A stretch of 24,478 nucleotides of DNA from a virus, in IMG/VR virus record IMGVR_UViG_3300043427_003010, positions 1 through 24,478 of that record; one strand, written 5' to 3'. Positions 2,091-10,369 of this stretch are shown here, piece after piece (within the stretch, counting starts at the first letter, position 1; each line of letters opens with the position of its first letter). The notes under the pieces are model-generated. The model made no database searches and was not told where the DNA came from. It saw only the letters and a list, made by a program, of their open reading frames with translations. A program made the position numbers and the translations under genes.

Positions 2091-2582
2091 TTATCCTACT
2101 AAGTAACCAGAAAATCCACTAAATGGTTGTCCATATATTCTCATATTACCAAATCTAGCAAATAAACTAACATAATCATTTGTAGATAATGAAAGAATAA
2201 TACTATTCGATCTACCTCTTTCAGCAGACATATATGCTATACCGCCATTAAGAGCATCGATACCATTAATACAAAACGATATACCTCCAACTTGATCAAT
2301 CTCCGTTATACAGGTAGCGGTAAAATGATATATTCCAGTAATTGGAGCCGTAAATCTACACGTTGTTGTATTATAATGATTTCCTACATTAAATAATGTG
2401 GAAGTAAATTTTGTTATTTCAGTACCATTATTATAAGTTGTATAAGTTGCGTCACCATAAGATGCAAATGCTGGTCTATTGGAATTTAAAACTCTTCCAC
2501 TTGCATCAATAGTTAAAGCAGTATTTCCGGTAGTACTTTTAATGAAGTTTGTTTGAACTTCACCTACATTTAGGATACTCAT
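2091..2582 (-). CDS. Short tail fibre with C1q/TNF-like head
   Basis: A 163-aa protein. The N-terminus (MSILNVGEVQTNFIKSTTGN, TALTIDASGRV) is the short attachment segment seen in many marine phage fibres. From about residue 35 the sequence has C1q/TNF-like jelly-roll character: PAFASYG, an FNVGNHYNTTTCRFTAPITG segment, GIYHFTATC, and a hydrophobic C-terminus FSGYLVG. Such domains trimerise and bind receptors at the cell surface. It overlaps the upstream 101-aa gene by ATGA, so translation is coupled. Unlike the two fibres upstream, no chaperone-like partner follows; the 89-aa gene comes next. Confidence 0.72.
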   Translation of the reverse strand: MSILNVGEVQTNFIKSTTGNTALTIDASGRVLNSNRPAFASYGDATYTTYNNGTEITKFTSTLFNVGNHYNTTTCRFTAPITGIYHFTATCITEIDQVGGISFCINGIDALNGGIAYMSAERGRSNSIILSLSTNDYVSLFARFGNMRIYGQPFSGFSGYLVG

Positions 2583-2884
2583 AAGTTTTCTGGTTTTGGA
2601 TATTTATTTTTCACTTCATCAATTACTGATTTCCAACCATCATAACCTTGATGATATAAAGTATCTAGTTGGTCTTGAATTGAAGGATAAGCAACAGCAC
2701 GATCTCTTTGATACTGGTTATGCTCATATTCTACTTGAAGTCTTTCTCCTTCTGCTTGTATTTCTTCTTCCGTTGGAGGTGGTAGTTCGTTTTCATCGTA
2801 CCATACTAGATTATTGTAATCATTGCCAGTTACCGAAAACTTTGCATCGGGTCTTATAGAACGAATTGTATTAAAAATATCCAT
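2579..2884 (-). CDS. Chaperone-like partner of short fibre, copy 2
   Basis: A 101-aa, strongly acidic protein. It begins with a short Ile/Asp-rich segment, then an aromatic WYDENELPPPTEEE linker. The C-terminal half shares YQR.RA..YP...D.LD...K.KYPKP with the 112-aa gene upstream. The YP..(D/G)DQLD.L element is widespread in small proteins encoded next to phage tail-fibre genes, including XkdW-like proteins, and is thought to be involved in fibre assembly or attachment. It is coupled to both neighbours: TAATG with the preceding fibre and ATGA with the following one. Paralogy with 3456-3794 is visible; the chaperone role is inference from context. Confidence 0.65.
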   Translation of the reverse strand: MDIFNTIRSIRPDAKFSVTGNDYNNLVWYDENELPPPTEEEIQAEGERLQVEYEHNQYQRDRAVAYPSIQDQLDTLYHQGYDGWKSVIDEVKNKYPKPENL

Positions 2885-3456
2885 TATCCCGAAACCTCCA
2901 TTAAAGTTAGAGTAGAAACTGGGGTAGAGTCATGACTAGGAGGAACGTTCTGAAATACTCTTGATCTATTTACAAAAACATCAGGAGCACTAGTCCATCC
3001 ACCCATTTCTATTTGATATGTTAAAGAGGATATTGATGTTGGAGAGTCATAATGAGTTCCACTGAGAACAAACACATTATATTGATTACCCTGACCATCA
3101 GTATTGTACATATTGATCATTCCAGTAGAAGCAATTCTTCCTCCTTCACCAGCACCCACTAAAATAGGAGTTCCATTTCTTTTAATTCTAAAGTGTTGCT
3201 GATAACCTGGTGATCCCCCAGCCGATGCTCCAACATACATATGAGTCAGTATTAGTATTTTACTAGTTGTAGAGGTTGGTGTTATAGTTGCACTTAATCC
3301 GGGCACATTAACATAGAGACCACTGCCAGTTTGTACTGAAGTTCCGGCAAAAGAAGTTGTTAAAGGTGTATGAACAACCTGTATAATACTTCCGGTGCTA
3401 TTGAGAATTGGTTTTCCGGCAACCGTTGTGATTGTATCAGTTCTTAAAGTACTCAT
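2884..3456 (-). CDS. Short tail fibre, copy 2 (MSTL family)
   Basis: A 190-aa protein whose first 28 residues (MSTLRTDTITTVAGKPILNS, TGSIIQVV) nearly match those of the 177-aa fibre upstream, so they probably form a common virion-attachment segment. The body has beta-rich jelly-roll character with shared blocks ATITPT..TSKILI..H and a terminal LT.ME. The middle (GGSPGYQQHFRIKRNGTPILVG and YDSPTSISSLTYQIEMGGW) differs fully between copies, as expected of receptor-binding domains. Start and stop codons overlap by one base with both neighbours. Family recognised from marine phage genomes; receptor unknown. Confidence 0.75.
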   Translation of the reverse strand: MSTLRTDTITTVAGKPILNSTGSIIQVVHTPLTTSFAGTSVQTGSGLYVNVPGLSATITPTSTTSKILILTHMYVGASAGGSPGYQQHFRIKRNGTPILVGAGEGGRIASTGMINMYNTDGQGNQYNVFVLSGTHYDSPTSISSLTYQIEMGGWTSAPDVFVNRSRVFQNVPPSHDSTPVSTLTLMEVSG

Positions 3457-3794
3457 TACTCTACACCTTCTGGTTTAGGATATTTTGCCTTTACCGCAAG
3501 ACACGCATTTATATATGTCTGTATTTGTTCTTGGTCATTTTTTACAATACCATCAAGATAATCAGCCATCGGTGGATATTCTGCTGCTCTAAGGCGTTGA
3601 TATTCGGTATTGTCCCACTCTCTTTGAAGTCTTATTATTTCTGCGTCTACTTCTTCTTTTGTGGGTTTCTTTTGACCACCTTCCCACACTGGTTTTTCTA
3701 ACCACTTAATTTGATAGTAATCACCATTTGGCATTTTCCACTGTGCCTGTGGACATAACGAATTAATTGCATCTGATATTGTTGCAGTTCTCAT
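3456..3794 (-). CDS. Chaperone-like partner of short fibre, copy 1
   Basis: A 112-aa protein with an N-terminal SDAINSLCPQAQWKM segment, a W-rich stretch (IKWLEKPVWEGGQKKPTKEE), an acidic helix (IIRLQREWDNTEYQRLRAAEY) and a C-terminal YPPMADYLDG...KAKYPKPE. The second half matches the 101-aa gene downstream at YQR.RA..YP, D.LD and KYPKPE. It overlaps the preceding fibre by ATGA and the following one by TAATG. Together with the alternating order this suggests a fibre plus partner module that has been duplicated. XkdW-like or fibre-assembly family is the best guess. Confidence 0.65.
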   Translation of the reverse strand: MRTATISDAINSLCPQAQWKMPNGDYYQIKWLEKPVWEGGQKKPTKEEVDAEIIRLQREWDNTEYQRLRAAEYPPMADYLDGIVKNDQEQIQTYINACLAVKAKYPKPEGVE

Positions 3795-4324
3795 GCTAAT
3801 ATCTCCATAGCAATAATACTTGTAAGAGATGTCATATCTAGATTAGCGCCGGGGGAAATTCGATTGTTAATGATAAGTGGATATATTGCTCCATTCCAAC
3901 TAGAACAGGCAGTTGGTGCATAAGTTATAGGAGATGTTGTTCCGGCAGTATCTTGATATTGATAAGTTGTAGAAGTACACCAATTACCCGCACTATCAGT
4001 GCCAGTTCCAAAATAAGCCATTGCGATTGTATTTGTACTATTAAGATTAGTATTGCCGCCAATATTTACTCCATTTTTAGCAAATCCAAAACTAGCCACG
4101 TATCGAGCATTATGAACAACATGAGCAATCAGAAGTATTTTACTTGTACTTCTTGTTGGAGTTATTGTAACAGAACAATTTTCAATAACAGAGTTATTTT
4201 GTGTTTCTATCTGGTCATAATTAGACCCCATATCACCATAAACAACTTGAATTATACTTCCAGTAGTATTCAATAATGGAAGACCATCAACTGTCTGAAT
4301 TGTATTAGTCTTTAGTGTACTCAT
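3791..4324 (-). CDS. Short tail fibre, copy 1 (MSTL family)
   Basis: A 177-aa protein starting MSTLKTNTIQTVDGLPLLNT-TGSIIQVV, the attachment segment shared with copy 2. The blocks SVTITPTRSTSKILLIAHVV and LTSIIAMEIL line up with copy 2, while the central part (FGFAKNGVNIGG, WCTSTTYQYQD, SSWNGAIYPLIINNR) is different. It is predicted to be an all-beta trimeric receptor-binding head. It follows the 93-aa gene by 8 bases and overlaps the 112-aa gene by 4. Divergence in the centre with conserved ends suggests host-range diversification. Confidence 0.75.
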   Translation of the reverse strand: MSTLKTNTIQTVDGLPLLNTTGSIIQVVYGDMGSNYDQIETQNNSVIENCSVTITPTRSTSKILLIAHVVHNARYVASFGFAKNGVNIGGNTNLNSTNTIAMAYFGTGTDSAGNWCTSTTYQYQDTAGTTSPITYAPTACSSWNGAIYPLIINNRISPGANLDMTSLTSIIAMEILA

Positions 4325-5031: not shown

Positions 5032-5957
5032 CAGAAAGTTATACTACCAGAACCGTTAAATGTATATATTCGGAACCCACCAGTTACCGTTACATTTGGT
5101 GAACCTGTAGTTGATGATGCCGCAGCAAAAGTATCTGCATATCTAAAAATGACAACTCCAGAACCACCAGATCCAGACACAGCAGTTCCTTCCCCAGCCG
5201 TATCCCCACCGCCGCCACCGCCAGTATTTGATGTACCATTTCGTGATGCTCCACCGCCACCACCGCCAGATCCTCCAGTAGCATTGTTCTTAGAAGCACC
5301 ATCACTAGTCATTCCAGAACCACCACCACCACCACCACGAGTTACGGCAGATCCGGTGATACTTGAAGAAGAACCCGCTCCACCAGTTCCTCCAGCCTGT
5401 CCGATAGCATTTGTTCCGACGGCCCCAGCACCGCCACCACCACCGCCACCACCAGCAGACGAAGTTGCAGCACTTCCAGTTCCTCCATTATTTCCTTGCC
5501 CAGATGTTCCAGTGCCTCTGGCACCCGTCGTGATAAGAGCAACCCCAGAATAACCACTACCACCACCACCTGATCCGCCACTATTTGCTGCCGAAGGAGG
5601 ATACTCAAATATAGTATTTCCATCATCAAAATATCCACCAGCACCACCGCCACCACCTCCACCAGTAGAAGTCACAGAAAATGCCGAAGAGTTTACTCCA
5701 TTTCCTCCTGTTTGTCCTCCATTCTCAAATACGGCAGATCTACTTGCTCCTCCGCCACCAACAGTAATTGTATAAGATGTTCCGGCAGTTACAGAAGCAG
5801 TTCCAGTCAAATATCCACCGGCACCGCCTCCACCAGATCCTCCAAGACCACCGGCACCACCACCACCGCCGCCTGCAAGAATAAGATACTCTACAGAAGT
5901 CGGTGCAGTTAGGATACCGGTATCGTATGATAATAATAACGCTTGTGTAATTGCCAT
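5031..5957 (-). CDS. Glycine-rich tail-tip adhesin-like protein
   Basis: A 308-aa protein. The N-terminal 25 residues lead into VEYLILAGGGGGGAGGLGG, followed by about 200 residues of many short polyglycine runs separated by Ser/Thr/Ala/Asn-rich loops. The C-terminal segment GSGGSGVVIFRY...GGFRIYTFNGSGSITF is the hallmark ending of a phage glycine-rich domain family. In the gp38-type adhesin of phage S16, runs of this kind form a bundle of polyglycine-II helices with hypervariable loops at the fibre tip that contact the receptor; a similar architecture is inferred here. It follows the collagen-like fibre with a TAATG overlap, so it may sit at that fibre's tip. Confidence 0.78.
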   Translation of the reverse strand: MAITQALLLSYDTGILTAPTSVEYLILAGGGGGGAGGLGGSGGGGAGGYLTGTASVTAGTSYTITVGGGGASRSAVFENGGQTGGNGVNSSAFSVTSTGGGGGGGAGGYFDDGNTIFEYPPSAANSGGSGGGGSGYSGVALITTGARGTGTSGQGNNGGTGSAATSSAGGGGGGGGAGAVGTNAIGQAGGTGGAGSSSSITGSAVTRGGGGGGSGMTSDGASKNNATGGSGGGGGGASRNGTSNTGGGGGGDTAGEGTAVSGSGGSGVVIFRYADTFAAASSTTGSPNVTVTGGFRIYTFNGSGSITF

Positions 5958-8900
5958 TAACTTAGTCCTGCTCCACTGATTACAAAGGTATTAGACGCAA
6001 CACATAAAATAGTTGCTAGTCCATACTGTGCTAAGGTTCTATTACCGGTGTTTGCAGTTCCAGCCTGCCTTAGGGTGACAGATACTCCTTGTGTGATAGT
6101 CTGACTACTACTGTTATTGTTAAAGATTGTAACTACATCTCCTACACTAAAAATTGATGCTGGAACTGTAACCCCACCACTTGTTATTGATATATGCTTT
6201 CCAATATCAGATAAAGATAATATGTATGCCGATGTTTGTGAGTTTTGTGGAATTACTGGTGGACCAAAAGTACCTTGAGTACCTTGAAGACCTTGAGTAC
6301 CTTGACCAGCATATAACCCATCTAATCCTTGAGTACCCTGTAGTCCTTGAATACCTTGAATACCTTGAGAACCTTGAGAACCTTGAAGTCCCGCAACATA
6401 ATTACCCAAGTCAAAATATACAACCTCAATAATATCTCCAGCAGATGCACCAACGGTAAGAACAACTGTAGAACCATCAGTTGCGGCATAGTCTACAGAT
6501 TCTTGTAAATGAGAACCATTTAGATATACAAGAATATATTGAACACCATATGCTACTGAGAATGTTGTTTGCCCAGCAGTAGCAGTAAATGTTGATTTTG
6601 TAATTGTTGATGGAGTTGAAGCTATTAACCCACCAGGAATTCCTTGAGTACCTTGTAGACCTTGAGTTCCTTGAAGACCCTGAGCACCCTGAAGACCTTG
6701 AGTACCTTGTAATCCTTGAGTACCTTGTAATCCTTGAGCACCCTGAAGACCCTGAATACCTTGCAATCCTTGAGTGCCTTGAGGTCCACGAATCTGTCCA
6801 ACATTATCCCAGTCCGTCCCAGTATAAACCCATAAATCTCCAGTACTTTCTTCAATAACGCCATCACCAGTAGATGGTGGATACCAAGAGAATCCTGTAT
6901 CATCATTAGTTAATGTGGTATGTGGTTCAGAAGTAGTAACTGCAATTACAGTCCCAACAATACTTACAGATGTTCCGTCAGTTCCACGGATTCCTTGAGT
7001 ACCCTGTAATCCTTGAGTACCCTGAAGTCCTTGGGAACCTTGACGACCTTGAGTACCCTGAAGTCCTTGAGAACCTTGAGCAGCAGATTCTCCTTTTAGT
7101 CCTTGAGTACCCTGAAGACCTTGGGAACCCTGAGCAGCAGATTCTCCTTTTAGTCCTTGAGTTCCTTGAGCACCTTGGAGTCCCTGAGTACCCTGAAGAC
7201 CTTGAGAACCTTGAGCAGCAGATTCTCCTTTTAGTCCTTGAGTTCCTTGAGTTCCTTGAAGACCCTGAAGACCTTGAGAACCCTGAGCAGCAGATTCTCC
7301 TTTTAGTCCCTGAGTACCCTGAAGACCTTGAGAACCCTGAAGACCTTGAGAACCCTGAAGACCCTGAGTGCCTTGACGACCTTGAGTACCTTGAAGTCCC
7401 TGAGCACCCTGAAGTCCCTGAGTACCCTGAAGACCTTGAGAACCCTGAGCAGCAGATTCTCCTTTTAGTCCCTGAGTACCCTGAAGACCTTGAGAACCCT
7501 GAAGACCTTGAGTTCCTTGTAATCCTTGTCTACCTTGTAATCCTTGAGTGCCCTGAAGACCTTGAGAACCTTGAGTACCCTGAAGACCTTGAGAACCTTG
7601 AGCAGCAGATTCTCCTTTTAATCCTTGAGTGCCCTGAAGACCTTGAGTTCCTTGAGTACCCTGAAGACCTTGGGAACCCTGAGCAGCAGATTCTCCTTTT
7701 AGTCCTTGAGTTCCTTGAGCACCCTGAAGACCCTGAAGTCCTTGAAGACCCTGAGTGCCTTGAAGACCCTGAGTGCCTTGACGACCTTGAGCACCCTGGA
7801 GTCCTTGAGTACCTTGAAGACCTTGGGAACCCTGAGCAGCAGATTCTCCTTTTAGTCCTTGAGTTCCTTGAGTACCCTGTAGTCCTTGAGCACCTTGCAA
7901 TCCTTGAGTGCCTTGAGTTGTTCCTGCAAGACCCTGAAGTCCCTGAAGTCCTTGAGTACCCTGAAGTCCTTGAGTACCTTGCAATCCTTGAGTGCCTTGG
8001 CGACCTTGAGTACCTTGCAATCCTTGAGCACCCTGAAGACCTTGAGCACCCTGAAGACCTTGAGCACCCTGAAGACCTTGAGTTCCTTGAAGACCCTGAG
8101 CACCCTGAAGACCTTGAGTTCCTTGAAGACCCTGAACACCCTGAAGACCTTGAGTACCTTGCAATCCTTGAGCACCCTGAAGACCCTGAGTGCCTTGACG
8201 ACCCTGAAGTCCTTGAAGTCCTTGAGTACCCTGTAGTCCTTGAGCACCTTGCAATCCTTGAGTGCCTTGAGTTGTTCCTGCAAGACCCTGAAGTCCCTGA
8301 AGCCCTTGAGTACCCTGAAGCCCTTGAGTACCCTGGAGTCCTTGAGTACCCTGAAGACCTTGAGTTCCTTGACGACCCTGAGTACCCTGGAGTCCTTGAG
8401 TACCCTGCAATCCTTGAGTACCCTGGAATCCTTGAGAACCTTGAGTACCCTGCAATCCTTGAGAACCTTGAGTACCCTGAAGACCTTGAGTACCCTGAAG
8501 ACCTTGAGTACCCTGTAATCCTTGAGTACCCTGAAGACCTTGAGTGCCCTGAAGACCTTGAGTACCTTGAGTACCTTGAGTACCTTGAGAACTTTGTATT
8601 CCTTGAGTTCCTTGAGCACCCTGAAGACCTTGAGCACCCTGAAGACCTTGAGCACCCTGAAGACCTTGAGTACCCTGTAGTCCTTGAGTACCCTGTAGTC
8701 CTTGAGTACCCTGAAGTCCTTGAGTACCTTGACGACCCTGAAGTCCCTGAAGTCCTTGAGTACCTTGCAATCCTTGAGTTCCTTGACGACCCTGAAGCCC
8801 TTGAAGTCCTTGAAGTCCTTGAGTACCCTGTAGTCCTTGAATACCAGCAGCAAATGGAGTAACCCAACTAACTCCAATACCAGTAGAAATTAAAACACTA

Positions 8901-10369
8901 CCAGCAACACCTACATTTCCATAATAATCTTCTACAGTTGAAGTAATACCAATTTTACCGCCAACATAAAGATTTTTTTCAATTCCAACACCACCTTCAG
9001 TAACGATTGAACCAGTATTTTTATTGTTGGATTCTGTGGTGCTATTTACATAAACAGAATCATTAATTTGGGTAGTTCCTCCACTTGAATCTAGAATAAG
9101 ATTTCCACCATCAATTGTACTGATAGTATTAGTATCAAGTTTAATATTGTCAAATGTTCCTACACCGGTAACATTTAAATTATTAATATTAACCTGAGAA
9201 TCAAAGGTTGAAATTCCACTTACTTTTAAGCGATTAAGTGTTGTGAGACCAGTAACACCTAAATCACTATCAATATATACTAATTTTTTGAATGTAGAGA
9301 ATCCAGTTACATATAAATCAGTTACATCAAGTGCTCCAACAAACTTTGATGCTGTTACAATACCCGTAAAATAAGCACTTGTTCCTGTAACAAATCCAAC
9401 TGTTGTAACTCCAGTAACTTGAAGATTTCTAGTTGTTGTGGTTCCTGTTACTCCAAGAGTTCCAATTGTCGATATTCCGGTTACTGTAAGATTATCAATA
9501 GAGGTTCCGCCTTTAAAACTAGATATTCCCAGAACATCTAGTAAAACTTTTGGTCGAGTACTACCAATACCAACACGACTATTAACTTCATCAAATACAA
9601 AGTTTGAAGCTCCATCAACTAGTCCAACAGAATTATGAAATTGAACTTGCTGATATGTTCCTCCTGCTCCTGCTCTAATTGTATCTTGATTTGCCCAAAT
9701 TAACCCACCAAGATTATTTTTAATTAAAATTTGAGTATCATTTCCCGGTTGATTCAGATAGTCATAAATTGTTCCGGTAAGTCTAATATCTCCTCGAACG
9801 TGCAATTCTTGTGTCGGATTTGTGGTCCCTATACCAACCAGTCCAGTTGGTTGTACATTAAAAAATGTTGTTCCGCTTCCAACATTCAACCCATTTCCAA
9901 TTGTTAAAATACCAACAGAACTATTAAAGACTAAATTAGAAGATGTTGCAAAGTCATTATTTTCTTTAAATAAAACTCCACCATTATTTCCCGGAGGAGA
10001 TACTGTTATTGTGGCAGCAATTCCAGGAGACCCATCAGGATTTAAATAACCCTGTACCGTAATAGCACTTCCCTTAAAATTAAGTTGACTAATACTACTA
10101 ACTCCTCCAGGCGGAGTTATAACACCTTCCTCATAAACACTAATTGCTCCGGGAATTAATCCTCCACCAACAGGAATCCAATATCTTTCTCCCGGTCTTT
10201 CAAGAAGAGATATGACTTGATATTGAGTTCCTACTGGTATTGTTGGTCCCGGTACAGCAGGATCTCCAAGATTTGGTTCTGCCTGGTCAAGATCCAAATA
10301 CCTATATCTATCAGTAGATAGTGAACCCTGCGGAGTTCTTTTGACTCTATTACTAAGGTATCTTGGCAT
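5957..10369 (-). CDS. Long tail fibre with collagen-like stalk
   Basis: A 1470-aa fibre protein. Residues 1-505 are a virion-proximal region with VGIGTTNPTQELHVRGDIRL and VGIGSTRP-type repeats and a series of LTVTG(I/V)STIG-type beta repeats. Residues 509-1134 form a collagen-like stalk of 208 Gly-X-Y triplets, mostly GLQ, GTQ, GAQ, GRQ and GSQ. A globular insert follows (about 1135-1194, with DGVIEESTGDLWVYTGTDW), then a second 51-residue collagen block, then a domain at about 1250-1320 (FTATAGQTTFSVAYGVQYIL...VYFD) known from marine phage fibres, a third short collagen block and a beta-rich C-terminus. Phage collagen-like segments form triple helices in fibres. The Gly-rich adhesin and 128-aa protein follow in overlap. 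Confidence 0.85.
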   Translation of the reverse strand: MPRYLSNRVKRTPQGSLSTDRYRYLDLDQAEPNLGDPAVPGPTIPVGTQYQVISLLERPGERYWIPVGGGLIPGAISVYEEGVITPPGGVSSISQLNFKGSAITVQGYLNPDGSPGIAATITVSPPGNNGGVLFKENNDFATSSNLVFNSSVGILTIGNGLNVGSGTTFFNVQPTGLVGIGTTNPTQELHVRGDIRLTGTIYDYLNQPGNDTQILIKNNLGGLIWANQDTIRAGAGGTYQQVQFHNSVGLVDGASNFVFDEVNSRVGIGSTRPKVLLDVLGISSFKGGTSIDNLTVTGISTIGTLGVTGTTTTRNLQVTGVTTVGFVTGTSAYFTGIVTASKFVGALDVTDLYVTGFSTFKKLVYIDSDLGVTGLTTLNRLKVSGISTFDSQVNINNLNVTGVGTFDNIKLDTNTISTIDGGNLILDSSGGTTQINDSVYVNSTTESNNKNTGSIVTEGGVGIEKNLYVGGKIGITSTVEDYYGNVGVAGSVLISTGIGVSWVTPFAAGIQGLQGTQGLQGLQGLQGRQGTQGLQGTQGLQGLQGRQGTQGLQGTQGLQGTQGLQGTQGLQGAQGLQGAQGLQGAQGTQGIQSSQGTQGTQGTQGLQGTQGLQGTQGLQGTQGLQGTQGLQGTQGSQGLQGTQGSQGFQGTQGLQGTQGLQGTQGRQGTQGLQGTQGLQGTQGLQGTQGLQGLQGLAGTTQGTQGLQGAQGLQGTQGLQGLQGRQGTQGLQGAQGLQGTQGLQGVQGLQGTQGLQGAQGLQGTQGLQGAQGLQGAQGLQGAQGLQGTQGRQGTQGLQGTQGLQGTQGLQGLQGLAGTTQGTQGLQGAQGLQGTQGTQGLKGESAAQGSQGLQGTQGLQGAQGRQGTQGLQGTQGLQGLQGLQGAQGTQGLKGESAAQGSQGLQGTQGTQGLQGTQGLKGESAAQGSQGLQGTQGSQGLQGTQGLQGRQGLQGTQGLQGSQGLQGTQGLKGESAAQGSQGLQGTQGLQGAQGLQGTQGRQGTQGLQGSQGLQGSQGLQGTQGLKGESAAQGSQGLQGLQGTQGTQGLKGESAAQGSQGLQGTQGLQGAQGTQGLKGESAAQGSQGLQGTQGLKGESAAQGSQGLQGTQGRQGSQGLQGTQGLQGTQGIRGTDGTSVSIVGTVIAVTTSEPHTTLTNDDTGFSWYPPSTGDGVIEESTGDLWVYTGTDWDNVGQIRGPQGTQGLQGIQGLQGAQGLQGTQGLQGTQGLQGAQGLQGTQGLQGTQGIPGGLIASTPSTITKSTFTATAGQTTFSVAYGVQYILVYLNGSHLQESVDYAATDGSTVVLTVGASAGDIIEVVYFDLGNYVAGLQGSQGSQGIQGIQGLQGTQGLDGLYAGQGTQGLQGTQGTFGPPVIPQNSQTSAYILSLSDIGKHISITSGGVTVPASIFSVGDVVTIFNNNSSSQTITQGVSVTLRQAGTANTGNRTLAQYGLATILCVASNTFVISGAGLS
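6635..6787 (-). repeat. Second collagen-like block (17 triplets)
   Basis: Fifty-one residues from GPQ to GIP in perfect Gly-X-Y register, separated from the main block by a 60-residue globular insert. Unlike the main block it has proline at both ends. Confidence 0.8.
6968..8845 (-). repeat. Main collagen-like repeat tract (208 triplets)
   Basis: A 1878-base tract encoding residues 509-1134. The basic unit is 18 bases, two triplets such as GLQ-GTQ. The Y position is almost always Gln and no proline is visible. Eight GLK-GES-AAQ modules replace one Gly by Ala, one SSQ replaces Gly by Ser, and two GLA-GTT-Q elements each add one residue (626 = 3 x 208 + 2). Third codon positions vary freely between units, so this is an old protein-level repeat with some recent DNA-level duplication. 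Confidence 0.9.
7865..8302. repeat. Exact 84-base in-frame duplication in collagen tract
   Basis: Bases 7865-7948 are identical to 8219-8302, an offset of 354 bases (118 codons). Similarity continues beyond the first mismatch. Each copy contains one register-breaking GLA-GTT-Q element, so the second kink arose by duplication of the first. Confidence 0.75.

Follow-up and report, generated by a model that had tools for sequence, protein, structure and literature searches.

The window, a complete virus record of 24,478 bases, contains a tandem array of five overlapping minus-strand genes in which short fibres alternate with small partner proteins. The array probably consists of modules of a fibre and its intermolecular chaperone, functionally like gp24/gp25 of cyanophage Pam3 and gp26/gp27 of Alteromonas phage V22, which are exchanged out of register with the gene boundaries. 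Gene order, overlaps, a translational coupling signal, the head fold, covariation between fibre and partner, exchange tracts and domain fusions are shown here. Fibre–chaperone pairs as such are already known (Pam3, V22/A5 and Mu); in the open-licence literature, no account came up of arrays in which members of this partner family are tandem and overlapping.

The gene order and protein sizes given in an earlier note on this DNA were reproduced on the minus strand: fibre 1 (177 aa, 3791..4324), partner 1 (112 aa, 3456..3794), fibre 2 (190 aa, 2884..3456), partner 2 (101 aa, 2579..2884) and fibre 3 (163 aa, 2091..2582). The four junctions overlap as ATGA or TAATG, again as described there, by 4, 1, 1 and 4 nt: GC-ATGA-GA (fibre 1/partner 1), G-TAATG-AG (partner 1/fibre 2), A-TAATG-GA (fibre 2/partner 2) and TT-ATGA-GT (partner 2/fibre 3). 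Fibre 1 comprises a conserved N-terminal 28-aa segment (4324-4241) and a variable TNF/C1q-like head (4240-3794), and ends in SIIAMEILA. Partner 1 has a variable N-terminal part up to W31 (3794-3702) and a conserved C-terminal half of slot-1 type (3701-3456). Fibre 2 repeats the layout, with a conserved 28-residue N terminus (3456-3373), a variable head (3372-2884) and the C terminus STLTLMEVSG, as does partner 2, with a variable part up to W28 (2884-2801) and a conserved C-terminal half of slot-2 type (2800-2579). Fibre 3 carries a C1q-type head and has no recognised partner downstream.

Upstream on the minus strand lie long-fibre, collagen-like and glycine-rich genes, followed by the five overlapping ORFs; the layout is best explained by an array at the end of a long-fibre operon. 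The window also encodes a collagen-like fibre of 1470 aa (5957-10369) with long GLQGTQ-type repeats. Higher window coordinates hold long-fibre, baseplate-hub and tail-tube genes, and the hub region matches the Kyanoviridae phage S-SRM01 (Serangoon Reservoir) at 73% identity over 61% of the query. These genes and the hub match identify the window virus, as far as sequence can, as T4-like and cyanophage-like. For the baseplate genes, no sequenced phage is closer than S-SRM01, a reservoir cyanophage, so the window phage may come from fresh water, and the marine setting assumed in the earlier note is doubtful. Elsewhere in the window, an HNH/homing-endonuclease-like gene (365-988) lies between genes for tRNA-Leu(TAA) (255-327) and tRNA-Met(CAT) (1036-1112).

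Fibres 1 and 2 had been described as sharing their N-terminal 28 residues and their ends but not their centres. The N-terminal segments are indeed common (75% identity, z 14.5). The heads keep 30% identity (z 7.7), so the centres have diverged rather than being unrelated, and the similarity of the ends is confined to a weak ME(I/V) motif. For fibre 2, AlphaFold2 (pLDDT 87) predicts a TNF/C1q jelly-roll head, with Foldseek matches to the TNF-like domains of Pgp3 (C-terminal domain, 5e-7) and of the BC2L-C and PLTL lectins (about 1e-4). For fibre 1, which matches phrog_7459 (6.6e-24), a head of the same class is assigned solely through the family alignment; the fibre-family profile, which was built from 78 relatives, hits a phage protein of solved structure, 9efk_AE, in its C-terminal domain (6e-25). 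Chain AE of PDB 9efk is 'orf22', a protein of 658 aa. Fibre 3 shows no similarity to fibre 2 (z -1.2), and its head is placed in the TNF/C1q class by its match to Pfam PF00386 (C1q type, E=1.7e-14). The fibres are presumably trimeric.

The partners share their C-terminal half, as had been noted (41% identity, z 12.4), and their N-terminal parts are also related (29%, z 7.2). Both match phrog_9114 (5.7e-18 for partner 1 and 4.3e-28 for partner 2), as do 92 of 92 aligned partner relatives; PHROGs annotates this family as "unknown function". Partner alignments show a variable N-terminal part up to a Tyr..Trp motif, followed by a conserved C-terminal half of one of two slot types. The AlphaFold2 model of partner 2 (pLDDT 96.3) shows a helix-strand-strand unit and then three helices. 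A profile search of PDB sequences gave chance matches only, with no significant sequence match between the family and any PDB chain, and Foldseek found no significant match of the model in the PDB. Against BFVD, the model retrieved mostly uncharacterised phage proteins and one 'Phage tail assembly chaperone protein' at an E value of 0.026, which is too weak. The window partners match neither PF16778 (Phage_tail_APC) nor PF09636 (XkdW); XkdW is matched by 9 of the 92 family members at E<=0.1 (best 6.3e-13), the singly inspected members falling below the curated cut-off. The Tfa/gp38 family PF02413 is not matched by the window proteins and is absent among the 25 families listed for the 92 relatives. 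For one partner relative there is a match (4e-4) to phrog_8746, which is annotated 'tail fiber assembly protein'. No single-ORF fibre–partner fusion was found among long partner ORFs. An alignment of 11 partner sequences was too divergent for scanning the collection.

A survey of relatives showed that fibre–partner adjacency recurs far beyond chance. Loci gathered through the partner alone, through the fibre and from annotated phages numbered 231 (L numbers below) and yielded 181 distinct modules. With two exceptions, every partner away from contig ends comes immediately after an ORF on its own strand that is at least 100 aa long, at a spacing of -20 to +60 nt. Overlaps of exactly 4 or 1 nt occur in 111 of the 181 modules (61%), compared with 335 of 1125 other neighbour pairs (30%). 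In 133 of 181 modules the protein encoded before the partner has the C terminus E(V/I/L/F)x1-3, which occurs in 173 of 1604 other proteins. The partner family occurs in phages of Prochlorococcus, Synechococcus, Pelagibacter, Methylophilales and Limnohabitans, and Methylophilales phage MEP402, a member of another phage family, has the identical order of fibres and partners in gp59-gp55. The C-terminal half of partner 1 (window 3456-3701) aligns with OP830907 (MEP402) positions 37983-38192 at 51% aa identity, and about 77% nt identity over 116 nt, which suggests transfer between very different phages.

Partners do not follow every fibre. Leaving contig ends aside, there are 215 distinct fibre-like ORFs, of which 134 precede a partner, 45 precede another fibre and 36 precede an ORF outside the partner model or none, some of these 36 being followed by small ORFs with a Phage_tail_APC C terminus. 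Some heads therefore either need no recognised partner or use one in common with another head. P-SSP7 (L002 2113-4833) and Lederberg (L005 472-2452) have several fibre-like genes in a row and a single recognised partner. At L022, fibre 2 is overlapped by 1 nt by a 152-aa ORF outside the partner model (5824-6282), possibly an unrelated helper, which lies where a partner would be expected. Small ORFs that follow TNF-like fibres at L213 (2774-3100), L203 (1100-1480) and L230 (5558-5884) combine a Phage_tail_APC-type C terminus with differing N-terminal parts; judged by their domains, they form a second family of helpers that parallels the partners in position.

Translational coupling of fibre and partner, proposed earlier, is supported by codon usage at the fibre end. 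The terminal Met-Glu codons of the fibres, ATGGAG, place a GGAG 8 or 11 nt ahead of the partner start. This Shine-Dalgarno-like site lies at 3803..3806 (minus strand) in fibre 1, 8 nt before partner 1, and at 2896..2899 (minus strand) in fibre 2, 11 nt before partner 2. GAG encodes the terminal Glu in 93 of 102 modules with an overlap, but in only 4 of 25 spaced ones; elsewhere in these fibres it accounts for 83 of 383 Glu codons. We first read the fibre ends as a binding motif; this was dropped, as spaced modules retain the residues without retaining the GAG codon. The loss of the codon where the residues are kept means that codon choice is explained by a Shine-Dalgarno site. The Met-Glu residues themselves are probably structural.

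The part of the partner that covaries with the fibre is its N-terminal ~30-40 residues. In 42 related modules, similarity of the upstream head was correlated with similarity of the partner N-terminal part, given the C-terminal half (partial r=0.35, P=0.0005). For the C-terminal half, covariation with the upstream head was not significant (P=0.12). In the 28 modules with fibres on both sides, the N-terminal part followed the upstream head (r 0.45, P=0.002) and not the downstream head (r 0.03, P=0.43). Across 162 modules, those with the nearest heads but dissimilar C-terminal halves reached the 0.81 percentile of N-terminal similarity, compared with a null of 0.50 and a maximum of 0.71 in 500 permutations. 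This pattern points to a partner specific to the preceding fibre; since head and N-terminal part adjoin physically, part of the covariation could reflect linkage rather than function. Two exceptions involve the window itself: fibre 2 compared with L022 (head 63%, partner N-terminal part 46%) and fibre 1 compared with L043 (65% and 39%).

Two candidate helpers of fibre 3 were considered. Partner 2 was rejected, because downstream heads do not covary with partner N-terminal parts. An 89-aa ORF at 2064-1795 shows 82% conservation in L011 although the fibre-3 head is not conserved there, which makes a cognate role unlikely. The proposal that each fibre brings a cognate chaperone is supported by the covariation as regards pairing with the preceding fibre, and by the Phage_tail_APC fusions described below as regards a chaperone role; it does not hold for every fibre, fibre 3 included.

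Comparison with related arrays revealed alternating variable and conserved blocks whose borders fall within genes. The first variable block (3702..4240, minus strand) spans the fibre-1 head and the partner 1 N-terminal part; its nt identity to L011 is 42-49%, compared with 95-96% in the flanks. It is followed by a conserved anchor (3373..3701, minus strand) made of the partner 1 C-terminal half (96% nt identity to L011) and the 28 opening codons of fibre 2 (92%). The second variable block (2801..3372, minus strand), fibre-2 head plus partner 2 N-terminal part, has 66% and 52% nt identity to L011 and 44% and 52% to L018, and the second anchor (2463..2800, minus strand), partner 2 C-terminal half plus the N-terminal 40 codons of fibre 3, has 85% and 88% to L011. 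In nine two-module arrays, mean identities for fibre N-terminal 28 residues, head, partner N-terminal part and partner C-terminal half were 0.79, 0.32, 0.47 and 0.82 in module 1, and 0.74, 0.34, 0.48 and 0.80 in module 2. For the first anchor this corresponds to mean pairwise aa identities of 0.82 and 0.74; the fibre-3 N-terminal 28 residues are less conserved (0.40).

Individual pairs of loci capture such exchanges. L011 and L018 share a tract of about 730 nt with a single difference, which starts 20 nt ahead of fibre 1 and runs to about codon 57 of partner 1; on both sides of it they are ~86% identical. Slot 2 of L116 resembles slot 1 of L115 in the head (81%) and partner N-terminal part (79%), but not in the C-terminal half (42%), indicating a move between slots. 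L033 and L028 have fibres that are 86% identical and identical partner N-terminal parts, and the C-terminal half of L033 is PF16778 (3.6e-11), the "tail assembly chaperone" family Phage_tail_APC. The same joining of a fibre and N-terminal part of the window family to a PF16778 C-terminal half occurs in L176 (1.2e-12) and L173 (1e-11); in hybrid relatives, PF16778 matches cover the C-terminal 60 residues (1.3e-19 to 3.6e-11). As judged from these alignments, the exchanged unit is the fibre head plus the partner N-terminal part, with the tract ending inside the partner gene, and we infer exchange by homologous recombination. The idea of a duplicated, shuffled cassette is thus upheld by the cross-slot moves and exchange tracts, with the correction that the unit is not gene plus gene.

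A close functional parallel is Pam3, in which the variable N domain of gp25 binds the TNF-like head of fibre gp24 and the C domain is conserved and helical (PMC9608196). The window modules share its short fibre with a TNF-like head, its adjoining helper gene and a helper with a variable N-terminal and a conserved helical C-terminal part. Pam3 has a single pair and a larger, Tfa-related helper (162 aa) with a beta-sandwich N domain, whereas the N-terminal part of the window partner is modelled as a small helix-strand-strand unit. In V22, gp27 is a downstream chaperone essential for fibre gp26 (PMC7289586). As in V22 and in A5 (gp8/gp9), the helper lies directly after a receptor-binding fibre, and helper and fibre together are common to distant phages; the V22 and A5 helpers are of DUF4376 type with beta-hairpin features and form one pair, with no tandem array reported in the accessible parts of these papers (PMC7289586, PMC10579305). 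Mu has two fibre genes in one locus, each with its own assembly gene (S-U and S'-U'), as in the window, but its pairs lie inverted in a Gin-switched segment and one is expressed at a time, whereas the window array runs in one direction with overlaps (PMC4406740). XkdW (PF09636) has a similar N-terminal layout, and XkdW-like genes adjoin tail genes (PMC8190038).

From sequence and from these analogies, the partner is very probably a folding helper of the preceding fibre. A full module would comprise a short, presumably trimeric fibre with a TNF/C1q-like head, then a two-domain intermolecular chaperone. The variable N-terminal part of the chaperone would bind and recognise the head encoded just upstream, and its helical C-terminal half would perform a generic trimerisation or assembly task, as in Pam3 gp25, that a Phage_tail_APC domain could take over. 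Overlapping genes and the Shine-Dalgarno site in the last fibre codons would couple translation of the two proteins. Fibre head and partner N-terminal part would form one cassette exchanged between slots and phages, for which the conserved block of partner C-terminal half and next fibre N terminus would provide homology. The partner, acting as a chaperone, would be removed before virion maturation.

Compatible with the chaperone reading, though in our view rather doubtful, is that the array serves as a genetic reservoir or transitional state in which one fibre dominates on the virion. Most distinct loci have one consecutive module (81, with 17 having two and 12 having three; short contigs bias these counts down), and Mu also expresses one of its two pairs at a time (PMC4406740). 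However, the window modules form a single overlapping run with a common orientation, so one message could serve for the translation of all of them, and slot-specific C-terminal halves and fibre N termini are maintained. Improbable is a partner that remains attached to the finished fibre, capping it or acting as a second adhesin, and itself contributes to host recognition. Its N-terminal part does vary with the head, and Mu Tfa and S16 gp38 are reported to remain fibre-bound (PMC7289586), but the functional parallels Pam3 gp25 and V22 gp27 are absent from the final fibre complex (PMC9608196, PMC7289586), and the partner is small (~100 aa) and predicted to be mostly helical, with no lectin-like fold in its model. 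We regard as very improbable that the partner is a small tail gene of the same variable island with no fibre-specific role, its C-terminal half being recombination homology only: the non-significant C-terminal covariation would fit, as would XkdW-like proteins, similar to some partner relatives, of unknown function in marine phage variable islands (PMC3909814), but the upstream head is the only one with which the N-terminal part covaries, fibre codons preserve the Shine-Dalgarno site of the partner, and recombination homology alone does not predict that sequence-unrelated C-terminal halves swap while the N-terminal part stays with its fibre.

Extending the chaperone reading, we tentatively suggest a socket system, in which the slot-specific fibre N terminus and partner C-terminal half would fix position and assembly, while cassettes of head plus chaperone N-terminal part would fit any slot. 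One virion might then carry several heads, and host range might evolve by swaps between slots, phages and chaperone backbones.

These results give a testable function, that of a fibre-specific chaperone, to the widespread unknown family phrog_9114 and the overlapping phrog_2687, 1787 and 8886. Natural hybrids, in which the same fibre occurs with two different chaperone C-terminal halves, are ready-made experiments on the role of each half. A host-range exchange unit can cut across gene boundaries, and gene-by-gene annotation therefore misses it. Swapping a fibre head together with the front of its helper offers such phages a way of altering their host recognition.
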